A DNA stretch of 64,000 nucleotides, taken from positions 1 to 64,000 of the forward strand of contig JAEOSZ010000095.1 of assembly GCA_016840095.1 (NCBI GenBank). The letters are read 5' to 3'. Below the pieces are notes generated by a model. It was not told the DNA's origin and ran no database searches. It was given only the letters and a program-made list of their open reading frames with translations. Below, in pieces: positions 46,001 through 55,763 of the stretch. Position 1 is the stretch's first letter. Each line of letters opens with the position of its first letter. The DNA is from Candidatus Heimdallarchaeota archaeon. GTDB taxonomy: Archaea > Asgardarchaeota > Heimdallarchaeia > Heimdallarchaeales > Heimdallarchaeaceae. The position numbers and the translations under genes were made by a program.

Positions 46001-46519
46001 CTATGAAATTTCATTGTTTTCCATAGCAATTGATACTATTTTCTTGAAAGCAGTAAAAAGGTTAATCTTTGCCTTTGCTGAAACCTCAAAATAGATTGTG
46101 TTTAATTTCTCTGCATACTTTTCTGCTTCCTCTTTTGTAACTTCTCTAGATTCTTCTAAATCTAATTTGTTGCCAATAACAATGACAGGAATGTCTCCTA
46201 CTGTTTGAATTAGTAAATCATGCCAGAAATCTAGTTTGCTAAAGCTCTCTTTTTTAGTGATGTCAAAAACAAGTGCTGCAACAACTGAACCCATGAAATA
46301 TGTAGGTAGAACTGGTAGAAACTTCTCTTGAGAACCTGAATCACCTATAATTAATCGAATATCTTTACCATCTATCATAGTGTTCCAGATTAGAAAATTT
46401 GCTCCTAAAGTAGGTTGATGAGTTATTGGGAATGAATCCTGAGCCTGTCTTAAAGCAATGGATGTTTTCCCAACACCTGGTTCTCCACATAATGAAACCT
46501 TATAGCTAATATCAGTCAT
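46001..46519 (-). CDS. Ras/Rab-like small GTPase
   Basis: This 172-residue protein has a full small-GTPase layout. G1 is CGEPGVGKTS (Lys18), the G2 Thr is at 37 in HQPTLGANF, G4 is GNKLD (117-120) and G5 is EVSAKA (147-149). G3 reads DSGSQEKF instead of DTAGQE, so the invariant Gly of DxxG is replaced by Ser while the catalytic Gln stays. No C-terminal Cys is present, so it is not prenylated. Ras-family GTPases of this type are abundant in Asgard archaea. It is divergent from the peptide/radical SAM genes. Confidence 0.88.
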   Translation of the reverse strand: MTDISYKVSLCGEPGVGKTSIALRQAQDSFPITHQPTLGANFLIWNTMIDGKDIRLIIGDSGSQEKFLPVLPTYFMGSVVAALVFDITKKESFSKLDFWHDLLIQTVGDIPVIVIGNKLDLEESREVTKEEAEKYAEKLNTIYFEVSAKAKINLFTAFKKIVSIAMENNEIS

Positions 46520-46585: not shown

Positions 46586-46616
46586 GATTTAAACAATAAA
46601 CTAAAACAGAGGATGA
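46586..46616 (+). promoter_or_regulatory. TATA-like element and ribosome-binding site before the 61-residue peptide
   Basis: GATTTAAACA (about 46586-46595) stands before the gene as a possible TATA box, and AGAGGATGA ends a few bases before ATG 46623 as a ribosome-binding site. The small ORF therefore has real expression signals. The radical SAM gene behind it has no comparable signals of its own. Confidence 0.45.
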
Positions 46617-46622
46617 CAAAGC

Positions 46623-46808
46623 ATGTCAGAAAGAGAACAATGTGGAGATTTTGAAATCTATCAAGATGAAGAAGATTGGTGGGTAGTTAAGAATACTATA
46701 ACCAAAGTGATTATTGGAAAATTCTTGAAAAAAGATGATGCTTTAGAGAAGATTGCAGCTTTTCTGCAAAGTGATGATGAAACTGCTGAAAGTGAATCTG
46801 TTTGCTGA
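46623..46808 (+). CDS. 61-residue peptide, candidate precursor of the adjacent radical SAM/SPASM enzyme
   Basis: The small protein has an N-terminal strand-rich part (FEIYQDEEDWWVVKN, then VIIGKF), a helix (KKDDALEKIAAFLQS) and an acidic tail ending in Cys (DDETAESESVC). Its stop codon lies five bases before the ATG of the radical SAM gene, and it has its own ribosome-binding site. Position, size and the leader-plus-tail shape fit a RiPP precursor with Cys61 in the core. The alternative is a small DUF2188-like strand/helix protein serving as a partner or chaperone. No similarity to known precursor families is recognised. Confidence 0.55.
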   Translation: MSEREQCGDFEIYQDEEDWWVVKNTITKVIIGKFLKKDDALEKIAAFLQSDDETAESESVC

Positions 46809-46813
46809 GTAAG

Positions 46814-48253
46814 ATGGAAGCTAAAGATCAAGTTCTTCAGATATTTTTAAAAGAAAATAAGTATATTCTACTAGATAGTTCTACAAGATTGTTTTGGGTT
46901 CTTGAACCAACTAAGATTATACAAGAATTAGCTTCAAAGAAGTTGAGTTTTCGTTCTTTAATTGAGTTACTTGCTAAGAATGACGATTTATATTCAAAGG
47001 ATTTGTATCAGAAACTAATAAAACTCAGAAAGTTTCACTTTTTTAGCTATACAGAAAATAACATTCAAACCCCTCCAAGCACTACACAAACTGATATCAA
47101 TCACATCTACATAAATCCCTCTTCGGATTGCAATCTAGATTGTTGGTTTTGTTATGCCGACAATTTAAGGAAGAGAAAATTACCTAGGCTAGATATTGAA
47201 AACATATTGAAACTAATTCAGTCTGTATTAGATTACAAAGAAAGGATAAATTCAACTACAGCTTTAGGTGTTTCTATTGGTTTTACTGAAGAACTGAACC
47301 TGAATTTTACGATTTTTTTGGAAGTTTCTAAATTTATTGAAAAGATGAAAATTAATTATAATCATCCAATTTTTCTTTTTATTCCTTCATCAAATTTGTT
47401 GGATGTTTCTGATGAATTTATTGAATTTACAAACAATTATAAATTTTTAACAGTCTCCGTTGATATTGATAATGAAATACAAATTAGTCAAGTTATCAAA
47501 AATCTTGGGGAATTCAATAGCGACGTTAAGAAACATCTAATAATACCTTTTCATTCTAGAACAACCAACCTTGTAAAGCTGTATTCTAGATTTTCTGAAC
47601 ATTTCAACTTAATCTCTTTAAGACCAGTTAGAGTTAGTATAGATTCAAAACATCCTTGGAGTCAAGAAAACTTTGAGAATTTTAAAGAAGTAATCTCAAG
47701 ATTCTATCATGATCTCCAAATGCTGAATGATGAAAATCTTCTCTCAATATTTTCTCTTCTTGGTCCTGTAGATTATTTCTATCGTTATTTTAAGCGAATC
47801 ATTGAAAGACAAAAACTTAGTGAAAGATGCACAGCTGGAAAGACAGCTTTTGCCATAAATTCTTTGCTTGAAGTTTCTCCGTGCTCAAGTTTATTTAGTT
47901 GTGAAAAATTGAATGTAAAAATCCATGACTTTCAAGTGGAAAAAGCACTTCAAAGCTTAACGAAAAGATTACCAAATTATAAAGAAACTGAATGTTCAAC
48001 TTGCTACATATCAAGTTTCTGTGGGGGGCCTTGTATGGATTGGCTTGTAAAACAAGAAAATCAAAGGATATCAAATCCGAGCAAAATAGAATGTGATTTC
48101 AATAAGTATATTGTTGAGGAATCTTTGTCTTTCATAACTAATTTATCAGTGAATAGGCAAGCTGTTTTTGAAAAAATTGTAAAAAAAAGAGAACTTAGGA
48201 ATAGGTTGAACTATCCTCTTTCATTCAATAGTTTTTCTGAGTTTTTTAGTTAA
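46814..48253 (+). CDS. Radical SAM protein with SPASM domain, candidate peptide maturase
   Basis: The 479-residue protein carries the radical SAM cluster motif CNLDCWFCYAD (CxxxCxxC, near residues 106-113). Its C-terminal SPASM set includes CTAGKTAFAIN, SPCSSLF, then CSTCYISSFCGGPC (CX2CX5CX3C) and a last Cys in ECDFNKY. The first 80 residues look like a PqqD/RRE-like domain (YILLDSSTRLFWVLEPTKII), as found in many peptide maturases. SPASM enzymes install thioether, C-C or ether crosslinks on peptides. The frame opens at TTG 46802, but ATG 46814 is preferred. The enzyme is coupled to the 61-residue peptide. Confidence 0.78.
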   Translation: MEAKDQVLQIFLKENKYILLDSSTRLFWVLEPTKIIQELASKKLSFRSLIELLAKNDDLYSKDLYQKLIKLRKFHFFSYTENNIQTPPSTTQTDINHIYINPSSDCNLDCWFCYADNLRKRKLPRLDIENILKLIQSVLDYKERINSTTALGVSIGFTEELNLNFTIFLEVSKFIEKMKINYNHPIFLFIPSSNLLDVSDEFIEFTNNYKFLTVSVDIDNEIQISQVIKNLGEFNSDVKKHLIIPFHSRTTNLVKLYSRFSEHFNLISLRPVRVSIDSKHPWSQENFENFKEVISRFYHDLQMLNDENLLSIFSLLGPVDYFYRYFKRIIERQKLSERCTAGKTAFAINSLLEVSPCSSLFSCEKLNVKIHDFQVEKALQSLTKRLPNYKETECSTCYISSFCGGPCMDWLVKQENQRISNPSKIECDFNKYIVEESLSFITNLSVNRQAVFEKIVKKRELRNRLNYPLSFNSFSEFFS

Positions 48254-48254
48254 A

Positions 48255-48671
48255 CTAGGTTAAAGGCCAATCTAATAATGTTGGAAAATCATTTGGAGAG
48301 AATTCTAACCAACCAGCAGCTCTGAATATGATTAGCAAAAGCCAACTGAATGTAAACCAGATTAGCATTGCCCCAAATGTAGCATAAATTGCTCTTCTCT
48401 CTGAAATTCCTCCTCCTATTACCCATAAAATCAAGCATATGAAGAAGATTATTATTCCAAAGGTGATTAGATCTGCAGACCCGAAGAAATCTAAATAACC
48501 TCTAAAAACCCAAACACATGCTGCTACAACACCTAAGATTAAGTTTAACCAAGCCCATTTTCTTACTTCTCTTCTAAACATTATTGTGCACATTATTGCT
48601 GAAGCAAAATAGAAGAGGAGTGTATTGAAAACTATAGCTAGAATTATATGTACAGTAGGATCTAGTGCCAT
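48255..48671 (-). CDS. Four-helix membrane protein of unknown function
   Basis: The 138-residue protein has four hydrophobic helices at about residues 8-30, 42-60, 66-88 and 97-118. A short charged loop (MFRREVRKWAW) lies between the first two, and an aromatic tail closes the protein (FSPNDFPTLLDWPL). No family is recognised. It is convergent with the radical SAM gene, one base apart, and may or may not be connected with it, for instance as an exporter. Confidence 0.6.
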   Translation of the reverse strand: MALDPTVHIILAIVFNTLLFYFASAIMCTIMFRREVRKWAWLNLILGVVAACVWVFRGYLDFFGSADLITFGIIIFFICLILWVIGGGISERRAIYATFGAMLIWFTFSWLLLIIFRAAGWLEFSPNDFPTLLDWPLT

Positions 48672-48756: not shown

Positions 48757-49890
48757 ATGTTTGTTCCACCAAGAAAGCACTTCCATCAGCAATTATGCAA
48801 CATATGCAATCAAGAGAAGACTCTATCTTCTTCACTAGGTATTTGCAAAACATGTCTCATAGAATACGAAATAGATTCAGAGAATTCAGTGATACAAACA
48901 CATGCTCATTCAAGAGAGAAATTTGTACTCCCAATTAATCCACCAAAAGGTGATTCTTTTTCCTGTGATCTTTGCAACCACAATTGCAGTTTTTCTAGCA
49001 ATGACCTTAGTTTTTGTGGTTTAAGATATACAAAGGATGATAAATTTATATCTAGGTCTTCAAAGAACTCTGCAACTCTGGATTTCTACTTTGACCCATT
49101 ACCATGTAATTGTTGTGCAGCTTGGTTTTGCCCAGCTGGTACTGGTAAAGGGTATCCAGAGTATGCTTACAAAGAAGGAAAAGAAACTGGCTATTATAAC
49201 CTTTCAGTCTTCTTCTATGGTTGCTCTTTTAATTGTTTATTCTGCCAAAATAAAAGTCATAAGAATGTAAGGATTGCTTCTAAAGTATCAGTAGAAAGAC
49301 TTAGTACATCTTTTAAAAACAATAAGAAAGTTTCTTGCGTTTGTTTCTTTGGTGGATCTCCTGAACCACAATTCGTTTATGCTTTAGAAGTGTCAAAGAG
49401 AATTCTAGAAATTGCAAAACAGGAGAAAAGAATAGTTAGAATCTGCTGGGAATGGAATGGTTTTGGCAATCAAAAATATATAGAAAAAGCTGTTCAAATA
49501 TCTTTGCAATCAGGTGGCAACATTAAATTTGATTTGAAAGCATGGTCTCCTCAAATTCACAAAGCACTAACAGGTGTAAATAATAAGAAGGTACTTGAAA
49601 ATTTTGAATATGTAGCTAAGAATTTTTTTGAAAAACGTCCTGAACTACCCGTTCTTAATGCAACTACACTTCTGGTTCCAGGATATATTGATGAGTATGA
49701 AGTGGAAAAAATAGCTTCTTTCATTGCAGAACTTGATCCAAATATTCCATACTCACTTCTAGGTTTTTACCCTCATTTCGAGTTTTCGGATTTACCATTA
49801 ACTACTCGAGCTATAGCAGAAAGATCTTTAGAAATTGCATCTAGTTATTTGAACAATGTCAATATTGGAAATAAACATCTACTTCTTTAG
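48757..49890 (+). CDS. PflA-like radical SAM protein with N-terminal Cys clusters
   Basis: The 377-residue protein has the cluster motif GCSFNCLFCQN (CxxxCxxC) and the glycine-rich FFGGSPEPQ. Later segments are GGNIKFDLKAWSPQIHKALTG and TTLLVPGYIDEYEVEKIASFI, both typical of pyruvate formate-lyase activating enzyme-like proteins (COG1180/COG1313). The first 150 residues contain several CxxC pairs (LCNICNQ, CKTC, CDLCNHNC, CNCC), probably a zinc ribbon and further cluster ligands. The target is unknown. It is separate from the SPASM enzyme upstream, although the two lie within 0.5 kb. Confidence 0.8.
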   Translation: MFVPPRKHFHQQLCNICNQEKTLSSSLGICKTCLIEYEIDSENSVIQTHAHSREKFVLPINPPKGDSFSCDLCNHNCSFSSNDLSFCGLRYTKDDKFISRSSKNSATLDFYFDPLPCNCCAAWFCPAGTGKGYPEYAYKEGKETGYYNLSVFFYGCSFNCLFCQNKSHKNVRIASKVSVERLSTSFKNNKKVSCVCFFGGSPEPQFVYALEVSKRILEIAKQEKRIVRICWEWNGFGNQKYIEKAVQISLQSGGNIKFDLKAWSPQIHKALTGVNNKKVLENFEYVAKNFFEKRPELPVLNATTLLVPGYIDEYEVEKIASFIAELDPNIPYSLLGFYPHFEFSDLPLTTRAIAERSLEIASSYLNNVNIGNKHLLL

Positions 49891-53502: not shown

Positions 53503-53871
53503 TCAGAAACAGTAGTTTAAGTCGGCCTCTAAAGACTCTGTAATAGCGTACATTCCACCAACTATGTCGTCGACTTCATCTATGAAATCTTCACGTGTTA
53601 ATCCATATCTTTCCAGAGTAGGACTACAGACAAAAATCTTAACTCCAAATTCCTTTACTTCTTGAATCATCTCTAAGAATGATTTCTTACCTACACCAGG
53701 TGTAATTCTTTCTGCGTTTCCTTTTTTGAGAAGCAGACCACCCGACATGGTATAAACCATCTGAACATCAGCATCTAGTGCAGCAGATAATGTTGCTAAA
53801 TGAAGAGGGGTTTCTAACCTATCAGGATAGTCCTCTCCAAATGTTACCATTATCATGATTTTGTGTGACAT
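53503..53871 (-). CDS. DsrE family sulfur-relay protein
   Basis: The 122-residue protein has the DsrE fold pattern: KIMIMVTFGEDYPDRLETPL, the helix LATLSAALDADVQMVYTMSG, and a conserved Cys in VKIFVCSPTLERYGL. That Cys is in the position that carries persulfide in DsrE/TusD proteins. It sits between another DsrE-like gene and the regulator, so it belongs to the operon with TusA and the SQR-like enzyme. It probably accepts sulfur from TusA. Confidence 0.82.
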   Translation of the reverse strand: MSHKIMIMVTFGEDYPDRLETPLHLATLSAALDADVQMVYTMSGGLLLKKGNAERITPGVGKKSFLEMIQEVKEFGVKIFVCSPTLERYGLTREDFIDEVDDIVGGMYAITESLEADLNYCF

Positions 53872-53883
53872 GTTGAATCTCCC

Positions 53884-54357
53884 CTAGATATAGAGTGTGA
53901 TTTCTGCTTTAGATGCGAATTCTAAGAAAGTTGCTGCACCACCAGGTGTACAATCTTCAATAAGATCCTTATCTTTAATTTTCATAACTGCTTTTGTCAT
54001 TTCACAAGCTATTAGTTGTACTCCAGATTCTATGGCTATATCCATTAGCTCTTGAAGAGTAGCTACATTTGCTTTCTTCATCCAACTCTTCATCATTTTG
54101 GTTGCCATACCTGTCATTCCAGGTAACATTCCAACGATTTGAGGGATTGGCATTGGCATTGCAGTTTCTCCAGCAGGAGTGATTTTTATTTTCTTTAATT
54201 TCTTCTTCTTCAGTAGGTTCAAACCGAAGAAAGTGAAGAAGATTCCTACTTCATAATCCATAGCTGCAGCTGTTGTAGCCAATAGTAATGGTGGATATGC
54301 TCCAGGTATATCAGCTTTTGAAGCTATTATAGCTAATCTTTTCTTTTTTTCAGACAT
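53884..54357 (-). CDS. DsrE2-type (DsrE/DsrF-like) protein
   Basis: This longer relative (157 residues) has LAIIASKADIPGAYPPLLLA, then DYEVGIFFTFFGLNLLKK and a Cys in VQLIACEMTKAVMKI. The hydrophobic stretch TTAAAMDYEVGIFFTFFG and the PxGGAAT-like end (TPGGAATFLEFAS) match the DsrE2/COG2210 group found beside TusA and SQR genes in sulfur-oxidising or sulfane-handling organisms. It may be membrane-associated. It is the second DsrE-type gene of the operon. Confidence 0.8.
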   Translation of the reverse strand: MSEKKKRLAIIASKADIPGAYPPLLLATTAAAMDYEVGIFFTFFGLNLLKKKKLKKIKITPAGETAMPMPIPQIVGMLPGMTGMATKMMKSWMKKANVATLQELMDIAIESGVQLIACEMTKAVMKIKDKDLIEDCTPGGAATFLEFASKAEITLYI

Positions 54358-54370
54358 ATTTATTCCTCGT

Positions 54371-54610
54371 TTATTTTGTTTTTTTAATTACATAACGAAA
54401 TATTCCGTTATCAACGGATTGATCCGCTAATTCGTGTCCAGTTGAATTGGTCCATGCTTTGAAATCTGCAACAGATCCTGGATCAGTAGCAACAACTTCT
54501 AGGTACTCCCCAACTGCTATTTCTCCAATTGCTTTCTTTGTTCTTAAAATTGGGAGAGGACAACTTAGATTTTTTGCGTCAAGTGTTTTTGCGATTTTTA
54601 TATCAGACAT
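54371..54610 (-). CDS. tusA: TusA family sulfurtransferase
   Basis: The 79-residue protein has the TusA signature LDAKNLSCPLPILRTKKAI, with the sulfur-carrying Cys in the CPxP motif, and the second-half motif VVATDPGSVADFKAWTNSTGH. The frame opens with a GTG at 54619, but that is part of a GGTGA ribosome-binding site; ATG 54610 is the start. It lies between the SQR-like gene and DsrE2, in the classic order of sulfur-relay operons. Confidence 0.9.
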   Translation of the reverse strand: MSDIKIAKTLDAKNLSCPLPILRTKKAIGEIAVGEYLEVVATDPGSVADFKAWTNSTGHELADQSVDNGIFRYVIKKTK

Positions 54611-54620
54611 TTTTTTCACC

Positions 54621-55763
54621 TTACAAATAGCCCTTAATTAGAGCCTTGAAATAAACAATTTTGAATGCTTTCTTGAATAATCCATATAGAAATAAGTTGT
54701 GTAAACCAAATTTTCTAGGAGCATAGTTATAACTAAATACCAATAACATTGATCTGCGGAATGAAGTGACTACAAAACAAACAGTAAAACCTCCGTATTT
54801 CTTAGTAGGTTCCTTTCCTTTCATTTCAAGTAGAATGTTTTTTATCAGCGCAGGAGCTGAAAAATGAGCAGCTGCTCCAGATTTTGAAATTGGCATATCA
54901 GTGCAATCACCTATTGCATACATACTTTTCTGATCTTTTACTTTTAGTGTAAACTTATCAGTACGAACAAATCCTTCGCGATCTCCTATACCTGCATCGA
55001 AAATTACTTTGTGCCCAACATGAGGTGGAATTAAGACTAATAAATCGTATTCTATCTCTTCTCCTTCTAGAGAAATAATTTTTTGATTTTCTTTATCAAC
55101 TTCTTCATAGTTGAAGAATTCAACAAATTCTATCCCTCGTTTGTCAAAGAGTTTTTGAACTTTTTCAGAGACTCTTGCTTCTGGATATGGTCGCATTAGT
55201 GGATAGAGATATTTAATTGTGGTCTTATCACGTAGTTTGATCTTCCTTAGGTAAGTGTCAAGTAAAAAGGTAAATTCAGCAGGTGCGGGAGGGCATTTGT
55301 ATGGTACTGTTGATGGAGAAATTACAATAGTTCCACCTTTGAAGTTCTTAAGTGCATCTTGGAATTTCTTTGTAGCATCAGCTAGATAGAAATGATGAAT
55401 TTTATCATCTTCATAAGAATCAACTTGCTCTTCATCCATTTTAGCTCCTGTTGCTAAGACTAAGTAGTCATAAAGTAGGGTTTCTCCATTAGATAAGGCA
55501 ATCTGTTTCTTTTCAGAATCAATATTTGTTGCAACTGTTCTCAGCCAAGTAGCTTTACCACTAAGGACTTTGTTCATTGGTTTAGTAAACTTAGATTGAG
55601 GATATTTCTTAAAACCCCAAAAAACGTATTGAGGTTCATAAATGTTGAATTCGTTGGGTTCAATTAAGATTACTTTGGCATCTTTTCTACGTAGTTTCCT
55701 AGCTAATTTATTAGCTACTGTAATTCCTGCAAAACCTCCACCAACAATGACTATATTTTTCAT
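54621..55763 (-). CDS. SQR-family FAD-dependent oxidoreductase
   Basis: The 380-residue flavoprotein begins with the FAD-binding motif KNIVIVGGGFAGITVANKLA. It continues with LVLATGAKMDEEQVDSY, the Cys motif VPYKCPPAPAEFTFLLD, and YAIGDCTDMPISKSGAAAHF. A second Cys lies near the C terminus in GFTVCFVVTSFRRSMLL. Both Cys positions are kept as in sulfide:quinone and flavocytochrome c sulfide dehydrogenase-type enzymes, and the C-terminal hydrophobic, basic segment can attach to the membrane. It should oxidise sulfide or a sulfane carrier. It lies between two tusA-type genes. Confidence 0.83.
   Translation of the reverse strand: MKNIVIVGGGFAGITVANKLARKLRRKDAKVILIEPNEFNIYEPQYVFWGFKKYPQSKFTKPMNKVLSGKATWLRTVATNIDSEKKQIALSNGETLLYDYLVLATGAKMDEEQVDSYEDDKIHHFYLADATKKFQDALKNFKGGTIVISPSTVPYKCPPAPAEFTFLLDTYLRKIKLRDKTTIKYLYPLMRPYPEARVSEKVQKLFDKRGIEFVEFFNYEEVDKENQKIISLEGEEIEYDLLVLIPPHVGHKVIFDAGIGDREGFVRTDKFTLKVKDQKSMYAIGDCTDMPISKSGAAAHFSAPALIKNILLEMKGKEPTKKYGGFTVCFVVTSFRRSMLLVFSYNYAPRKFGLHNLFLYGLFKKAFKIVYFKALIKGYL

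Follow-up and report, generated by a model that had tools for sequence, protein, structure and literature searches.

A small protein and a radical SAM/SPASM enzyme encoded as an inseparable pair in Heimdallarchaeaceae: a proposed maturation unit acting at an encoded C-terminal cysteine

What does a radical SAM/SPASM enzyme act on when the gene directly before it encodes a protein of 61 residues ending in cysteine? Peptide-modifying SPASM enzymes have been studied mostly in bacteria, and Asgard archaea are close to the eukaryote lineage. The question comes from a stretch of 64,000 nucleotides of Heimdallarchaeota DNA (the window), for which an earlier note, made from the sequence alone, had proposed that the small protein (the 61-mer) is the substrate of the enzyme. 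Our results indicate that the two genes belong together throughout one archaeal family, and we propose that they serve the maturation of the small protein.

The small ORF could be confirmed in the sequence as described in the earlier note, with an acidic tail, a terminal Cys (the C-terminus reads ...DDETAESESVC) and a distance of five bases to the radical SAM ORF (Table 1). The ribosome-binding site claimed for it is present in the window as the Shine–Dalgarno-like AGAGGATGA but is not conserved upstream of the gene in relatives. In the alignment, residues M1, C7, G8, Y13, W20, G32, K33, F34, A40, A45, Q49, E56, S59 and C61 are invariant, and these include both cysteines of the protein, Cys7 and Cys61. 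The tail ends in E56-S-E-S59-V-C61, and in relatives the last two residues are Val/Thr-Cys. Note that Glu58 is replaced by Gly in L036 (Ca. Heimdallarchaeum endolithica). The protein has 60–61 residues in the family and 68, 7 more than here, in Ca. Heimdallarchaeum endolithica, where the linker is longer and the tail still reads E-T-G-S-V-C.

The small protein is conserved throughout and changes less than its enzyme: mean pairwise identity is 65% as compared to 43%, and the difference has the same direction in 188 of 190 genome pairs. Pairwise dN/dS is low, about 0.1–0.25 in most close pairs, rising to about 0.45 in a few close pairs with very small counts. The last codons vary synonymously among relatives (TGC/TGT, GTT/GTA, TCA/TCT), which means that the protein is conserved and not an overlapping signal. 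With 21 copies, all of them ending in Cys, and low dN/dS, the pair is far beyond chance. When the tail motif was searched for in ten family genomes, the small-protein gene was found in each, with otherwise 0–1 stray matches; these are at chance level only, and we rejected the idea of another protein that shares this tail. The small protein was not found in plasmids and viral contigs.

AlphaFold2, supplied with 19 homologues, predicts four strands (residues 4–7, 10–14, 20–24 and 29–34) and a helix (37–50) with block mean pLDDT of 79–91. Residues 53–61 have pLDDT below 50, and this part of the tail is probably disordered. The predicted structure is a folded beta4-alpha domain (residues 4–50) followed by a disordered acidic tail. 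The PDB fold search gave no match below E 0.3, and the viral-library search gave generic small beta-alpha proteins only (E at least 0.02). There is a likeness to DUF2188/DUF1508 domains in the pattern GWWxVK...F.xK.xAxxxA and in the beta-beta-beta-alpha fold, with weak Pfam matches in 5 of 19 members and fold matches to small phage proteins. However, the best member (E 0.005) stays under the gathering cut-off of DUF2188 (PF09954), hhalign against an Asgard DUF2188 protein gives 6.6% probability and that protein has no Cys tail; the assignment was rejected. A search with the DUF2188 family gave no match in the genus of the window organism.

The enzyme matches Pfam Radical_SAM (PF04055, 1.9e-8, above cut-off) and NCBIfam SPASM (TIGR04085, 28.3 bits, cut-off 27). 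Its ATG lies five bases past the 61-mer stop; starting instead at the in-frame TTG at 46802 would make the two ORFs overlap. The CxxxCxxC motif and the full SPASM set seen earlier were verified; specifically, C106, C110 and C113 and the SPASM cysteines C339, C357, C394-X2-C397-X5-C403-X3-C407 and C427 are all invariant in 20 relatives. The predicted model (mean pLDDT 84, pTM 0.86) runs from an N-terminal part of three strands and helices through the radical SAM barrel and SPASM region to a helical extension, which carries a conserved LNYPLxFxxFxxFF.

The N-terminal part had been called PqqD/RRE-like. The predicted topology of residues 7–73, three strands followed by helices, is RRE-like, and QhpD and ScfB-like models match weakly from near residue 11–12; Pfam PqqD, in contrast, has no match in the enzyme nor in the genome. 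About half of the relatives lack residues about 38–66 and keep the strands and the last helix. Enzymes without these roughly 30 residues may show a minimal recognition element. In CteB the leader is positioned between RRE helix alpha3 and strand beta3 (PMC8326336), so that the retained parts would be those that hold a leader.

Table 1. Features of the two-gene unit and of its surroundings, in window positions
Feature	Positions	Strand	Basis
Shine–Dalgarno-like AGAGGATGA 5' of the 61-mer ORF	46608..46616	+	sequence
61-residue small protein, proposed substrate	46623..46808	+	start to stop codon
61-mer residues 1–50, predicted folded beta-beta-beta-beta-alpha domain	46623..46772	+	AlphaFold2, alignment
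61-mer residues 51–61, acidic tail predicted disordered, proposed modification site	46773..46805	+	pLDDT, alignment
Radical SAM/SPASM enzyme of 479 residues, ATG start	46814..48253	+	Pfam, NCBIfam, CteB fold match
Enzyme residues 1–80, RRE-like by predicted topology	46814..47053	+	alignment, model
Enzyme residues about 38–66, absent in about half of relatives	46925..47011	+	
CX3CX2C for the SAM-binding [4Fe-4S] cluster, C106/C110/C113	47129..47152	+	invariant in 20 relatives
SPASM region C339–C427, seven Cys for two auxiliary clusters	47828..48094	+	alignment
C-terminal helical extension past SPASM	48104..48250	+	alignment, model
Two adjacent proteins, 430 and 398 aa	43372..45861	-	
Ras-like small GTPase gene, oriented divergently to the pair	46001..46519	-	
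Convergent membrane-protein gene	48255..48671		
Second radical SAM protein, Cys-rich N-terminal part	48757..49890	+	
Sulphur-trafficking set	53503..55763	-	
DsrE-like protein of this set	53503..53871	-	
DsrE_2-like protein of this set	53884..54357	-	
TusA of this set	54371..54619	-	
Flavoprotein of this set	54621..55763	-	

The small protein and the enzyme are a conserved, inseparable two-gene unit of Heimdallarchaeaceae. Strong matches to the enzyme were found in 21 of 23 genomes of the family, and in other Asgard families there were two weak partial matches only (E 4e-5 and 7e-4). The profile of the small protein matched in 22 of the 23, and the 205 Asgard genomes outside the family gave no match. 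The carriers are MAGs of Heimdallarchaeota, together with the closed Ca. Heimdallarchaeum endolithica chromosome, and essentially every genome of the family has one copy of the pair. Wherever upstream DNA could be read (21 copies), the small protein stands directly upstream of the enzyme, whose first ATG lies 5 bases past the small-protein stop or overlaps it; in one copy a TTG or GTG start has to be assumed. The earlier claim of a coupled pair is thus borne out as an exclusive pairing across the family. We looked for the enzyme without the small ORF among relatives and found no case where upstream DNA was readable, and the search for the small protein without the enzyme yielded a single fragment, the first 19 residues at a contig end in G008. 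G012 does not have the pair. Both genomes also lack the neighbouring membrane-protein gene and the G008 fragment sits at a contig end, so assembly gaps are the likely cause of the missing members.

Gene order around the pair is widely kept in the family, with individual neighbours dropping out. The Ras-like GTPase is absent beside the pair in L036 and in G021 (L024), and the membrane-protein gene in L030, L033 and L045. Some genomes lack these genes or the second radical SAM protein beside the pair, and we therefore rejected all three as obligate parts of the unit. The second radical SAM protein is near the pair in most relatives and is nearest to the AmmeMemoRadiSam radical SAM enzyme and to pyruvate formate-lyase activases, below the cut-offs. 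Two further observations concern more distant genes. The adjacent proteins of 430 and 398 aa, which have no Pfam assignment, are kept together upstream of the pair; the second has a Cys-rich zinc-finger-like stretch and evolves very fast (median identity 31%). The order of the sulphur-trafficking set is conserved in several relatives, and its flavoprotein has a central domain like that of flavocytochrome c sulphide dehydrogenase.

The placement of the enzyme among peptide-modifying SPASM enzymes is upheld, its closest relatives being thioether-forming maturases. CteB is the SCIFF maturase of Clostridium thermocellum. Against solved structures the enzyme-family profile gives CteB at 5e-25 and SuiB (5V1Q) at 1e-5; the fold search also places CteB first (E 2e-15, TM 0.74 on target, near full-length), followed by anSME and ChlB. 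All 20 enzyme members match the SCIFF-maturase, nif11-maturase, PapB, QhpD and CbpB models. Thioether formation from Cys is the chemistry of CteB, PapB and QhpD (PMC8326336, PMC9413430). The window enzyme nevertheless falls well short of all NCBIfam equivalog cut-offs (about 50 bits as compared to 340 or more), so the enzyme is best seen as a clade of its own near the thioether-forming enzymes, and the bond type cannot be transferred from the known families.

On balance, and with modest confidence, we favour the explanation that the pair is a dedicated maturation unit in which the enzyme modifies the tail of the 61-mer at or near Cys61 and the modified protein is the working product. The data establish the pairing, its exclusivity, the pattern of conservation and the domain architecture; the role of the 61-mer as substrate, the place and bond type of its modification and an intact product are what we infer. 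Both proteins would be translated from one message, the 61-mer first and the downstream enzyme after it. Recognition would involve the folded part (residues about 4–50), at least partly through the RRE-like N-terminal domain of the enzyme, and the flexible acidic tail, a plausible target with its terminal Cys, would reach into the active site of the radical SAM/SPASM enzyme. A radical on or near the tail could be captured by Cys61 or created at it, leaving the tail modified at or beside this residue. The product is probably a thioether at Cys61, most likely from its sulphur to Glu56, Glu58 or Ser59. In NxxcA, Cys23 is the donor to Asn20 (PMC8326336), which shows that an acceptor three residues upstream is possible; the spacing is that of Cys61 and Glu58. 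The modified protein would have a housekeeping role in Heimdallarchaeaceae, for example in redox reactions or in metal or protein binding. It is strong conservation of the whole small protein, and not of the tail alone, that points to the modified protein itself as the working product; its folded part is more conserved than the enzyme and the unit has no peptidase or exporter, which favours an intact product.

Several observations weigh against this explanation or parts of it. PapB does not accept the transposed order with the acid before Cys (PMC9413430), and this, together with Gly in place of Glu58 in L036, counts against the favoured thioether. The invariant Cys7 could be the real donor or the partner of Cys61. 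Finally, co-evolution of the small protein and the enzyme beyond the species tree, judged from distance matrices, is weak (partial r 0.33, 78 pairs), which counts against the favoured explanation and is not decisive. A bolder version of the maturation reading, which we advance as a speculation with rather little confidence, is that the pair represents a new radical SAM maturation class confined to Heimdallarchaeaceae. A folded small protein of constant sequence would acquire a cross-link, or another modification by radical chemistry, on its encoded C-terminal Cys, and the core metabolism of these archaea would then use it as a cofactor or carrier in protein form.

The main rival, which we consider unlikely and yet a serious competitor, is a cofactor-like or carrier route. 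Here the enzyme would modify the C-terminal residues, a protease encoded elsewhere would free the product from the tail and the folded part would be a reusable scaffold, after the models of mycofactocin, PQQ and single amino acids on the C-terminus of a pearlin. The proposed site at the extreme C-terminus and a sequence that is constant across the family, with no diversification, fit this route. In the mycofactocin pathway a radical SAM enzyme uses the C-terminal Val-Tyr of MftA as starting material, and a peptidase encoded outside the cluster can stand in for the cluster's own (PMC7491314). Moreover, 3-thia-amino acids are started by a C-terminal Cys on a carrier of roughly 50 residues (PMC9016710, PMC9303977). 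However, the unit contains no peptidase, dehydrogenase, glycosyltransferase, PEARL ligase or MNIO gene, Cys61 is encoded and not added, and a mere leader or scaffold is not expected to exceed the enzyme that reads it in conservation.

Less probable still, and improbable in our judgement, is that the 61-mer is a partner of the enzyme, i.e. an activator, an electron-transfer or a substrate-presenting subunit, and that the true substrate is a different protein or a metabolite. A small protein predicted to fold, strictly paired with the enzyme and more conserved than it could play such a part, and some radical SAM peptide enzymes do need a small separate binding partner, as PqqE needs PqqD (PMC8326336). 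The present enzyme, on the other hand, seems from its model to carry an RRE-like domain of its own. The tail of the 61-mer, predicted to be disordered and with an invariant Cys at its end, resembles a target, and the pair has neither another small ORF nor any further candidate substrate linked to it.

A conventional RiPP natural product, an antimicrobial or a signal with a leader and a variable core as in sactipeptides and ranthipeptides, has the following in its favour: a radical SAM/SPASM enzyme with a predicted RRE-like domain stands beside a small ORF, and its nearest solved relative is the SCIFF maturase. The earlier note had expected a conserved leader and a variable core, and this expectation failed. 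The small protein is conserved along its length and more so than the enzyme, which makes a diversified natural product very unlikely. In addition there are two cysteines only, the unit has no exporter, immunity or peptidase gene, and the occurrence as one copy per genome does not fit either. By analogy, a SCIFF-like housekeeping or signal role is possible. That two unrelated conserved genes are adjacent by the general synteny of the region, which is indeed widely kept, appears scarcely credible: other neighbours break away and the pair junction never does, including in two further genera of this family; the stop of the first gene and the start of the second are almost in contact or overlap; and both proteins are absent together outside the family.

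Ranthipeptides and sactipeptides are among the RiPP clusters that a genome-mining survey has reported from archaea, with Asgard genomes in its set (PMC12144867). The occurrence of RiPP clusters in Asgard archaea is therefore not new in general. What is new here is a defined pair family, its exclusivity and a constant, proposed substrate with a predicted fold and an encoded C-terminal Cys. Our literature search found no paper on such a small-protein/radical SAM pair in Heimdallarchaeota. The pair is minimal and fully linked, it is kept by essentially a whole Asgard family and its proposed substrate is unusual in being constant. Only two short genes are needed, which brings the chemistry within reach of tests in E. 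coli, and a sharp prediction comes from the invariant Cys at the C-terminus. A radical-modified housekeeping protein in Asgard archaea would be unexpected.

How does the pair compare with known systems? It shares with mycofactocin (MftA/MftC) and PQQ (PqqA/PqqE) a conserved precursor and a SPASM enzyme, and with mycofactocin also a C-terminal target, which for the 61-mer is proposed. In contrast to both, the locus has no MftB/D/E/F-like or Pqq-like partner genes and the tail sequence of the 61-mer is unrelated; neither MftC nor PqqE appears in the best 25 NCBIfam matches of the enzyme. Mycofactocin itself was rejected, since it needs a C-terminal Val-Tyr and MftB/C/D/E/F whereas we have a Val/Thr-Cys tail and a unit of two genes. 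A pearlin carrier peptide was rejected as well: Cys61 is not added by a ligase, and no PEARL ligase is among the flanking genes scanned.

As in SCIFF/CteB, a small ORF adjoins a radical SAM/SPASM enzyme with an N-terminal RRE (RRE-like by prediction in our case), CteB (5WGG/5WHY) is the best PDB match of the enzyme by sequence and by fold, and the precursor is widespread within one lineage, as SCIFFs are in Clostridia (PMC8326336). The differences are that the 61-mer has two Cys and the SCIFF precursor six in 45 residues, that the 61-mer has a folded domain and a proposed C-terminal Cys donor, and that the enzyme does not qualify as a SCIFF maturase (TIGR03974, 42 bits, cut-off 425). PapB, the enzyme of freyrasin, gives the best NCBIfam score of the window enzyme (2.6e-13) and also has a target with Cys and acidic residues. 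Unlike freyrasin, the 61-mer has no repeated CX3D/E motifs and its acids precede the Cys; assignment as PapB (NF047865) was rejected at 50 bits with a cut-off of 340. With QhpD the enzyme shares a similar profile, although it was rejected as QhpD with a score far below the cut-off, and no quinohemoprotein amine dehydrogenase subunits were recognised at the locus. The QHNDH gamma subunit is a constant functional protein that carries Cys-Asp/Glu thioethers, and it is this logic that we favour for the 61-mer.
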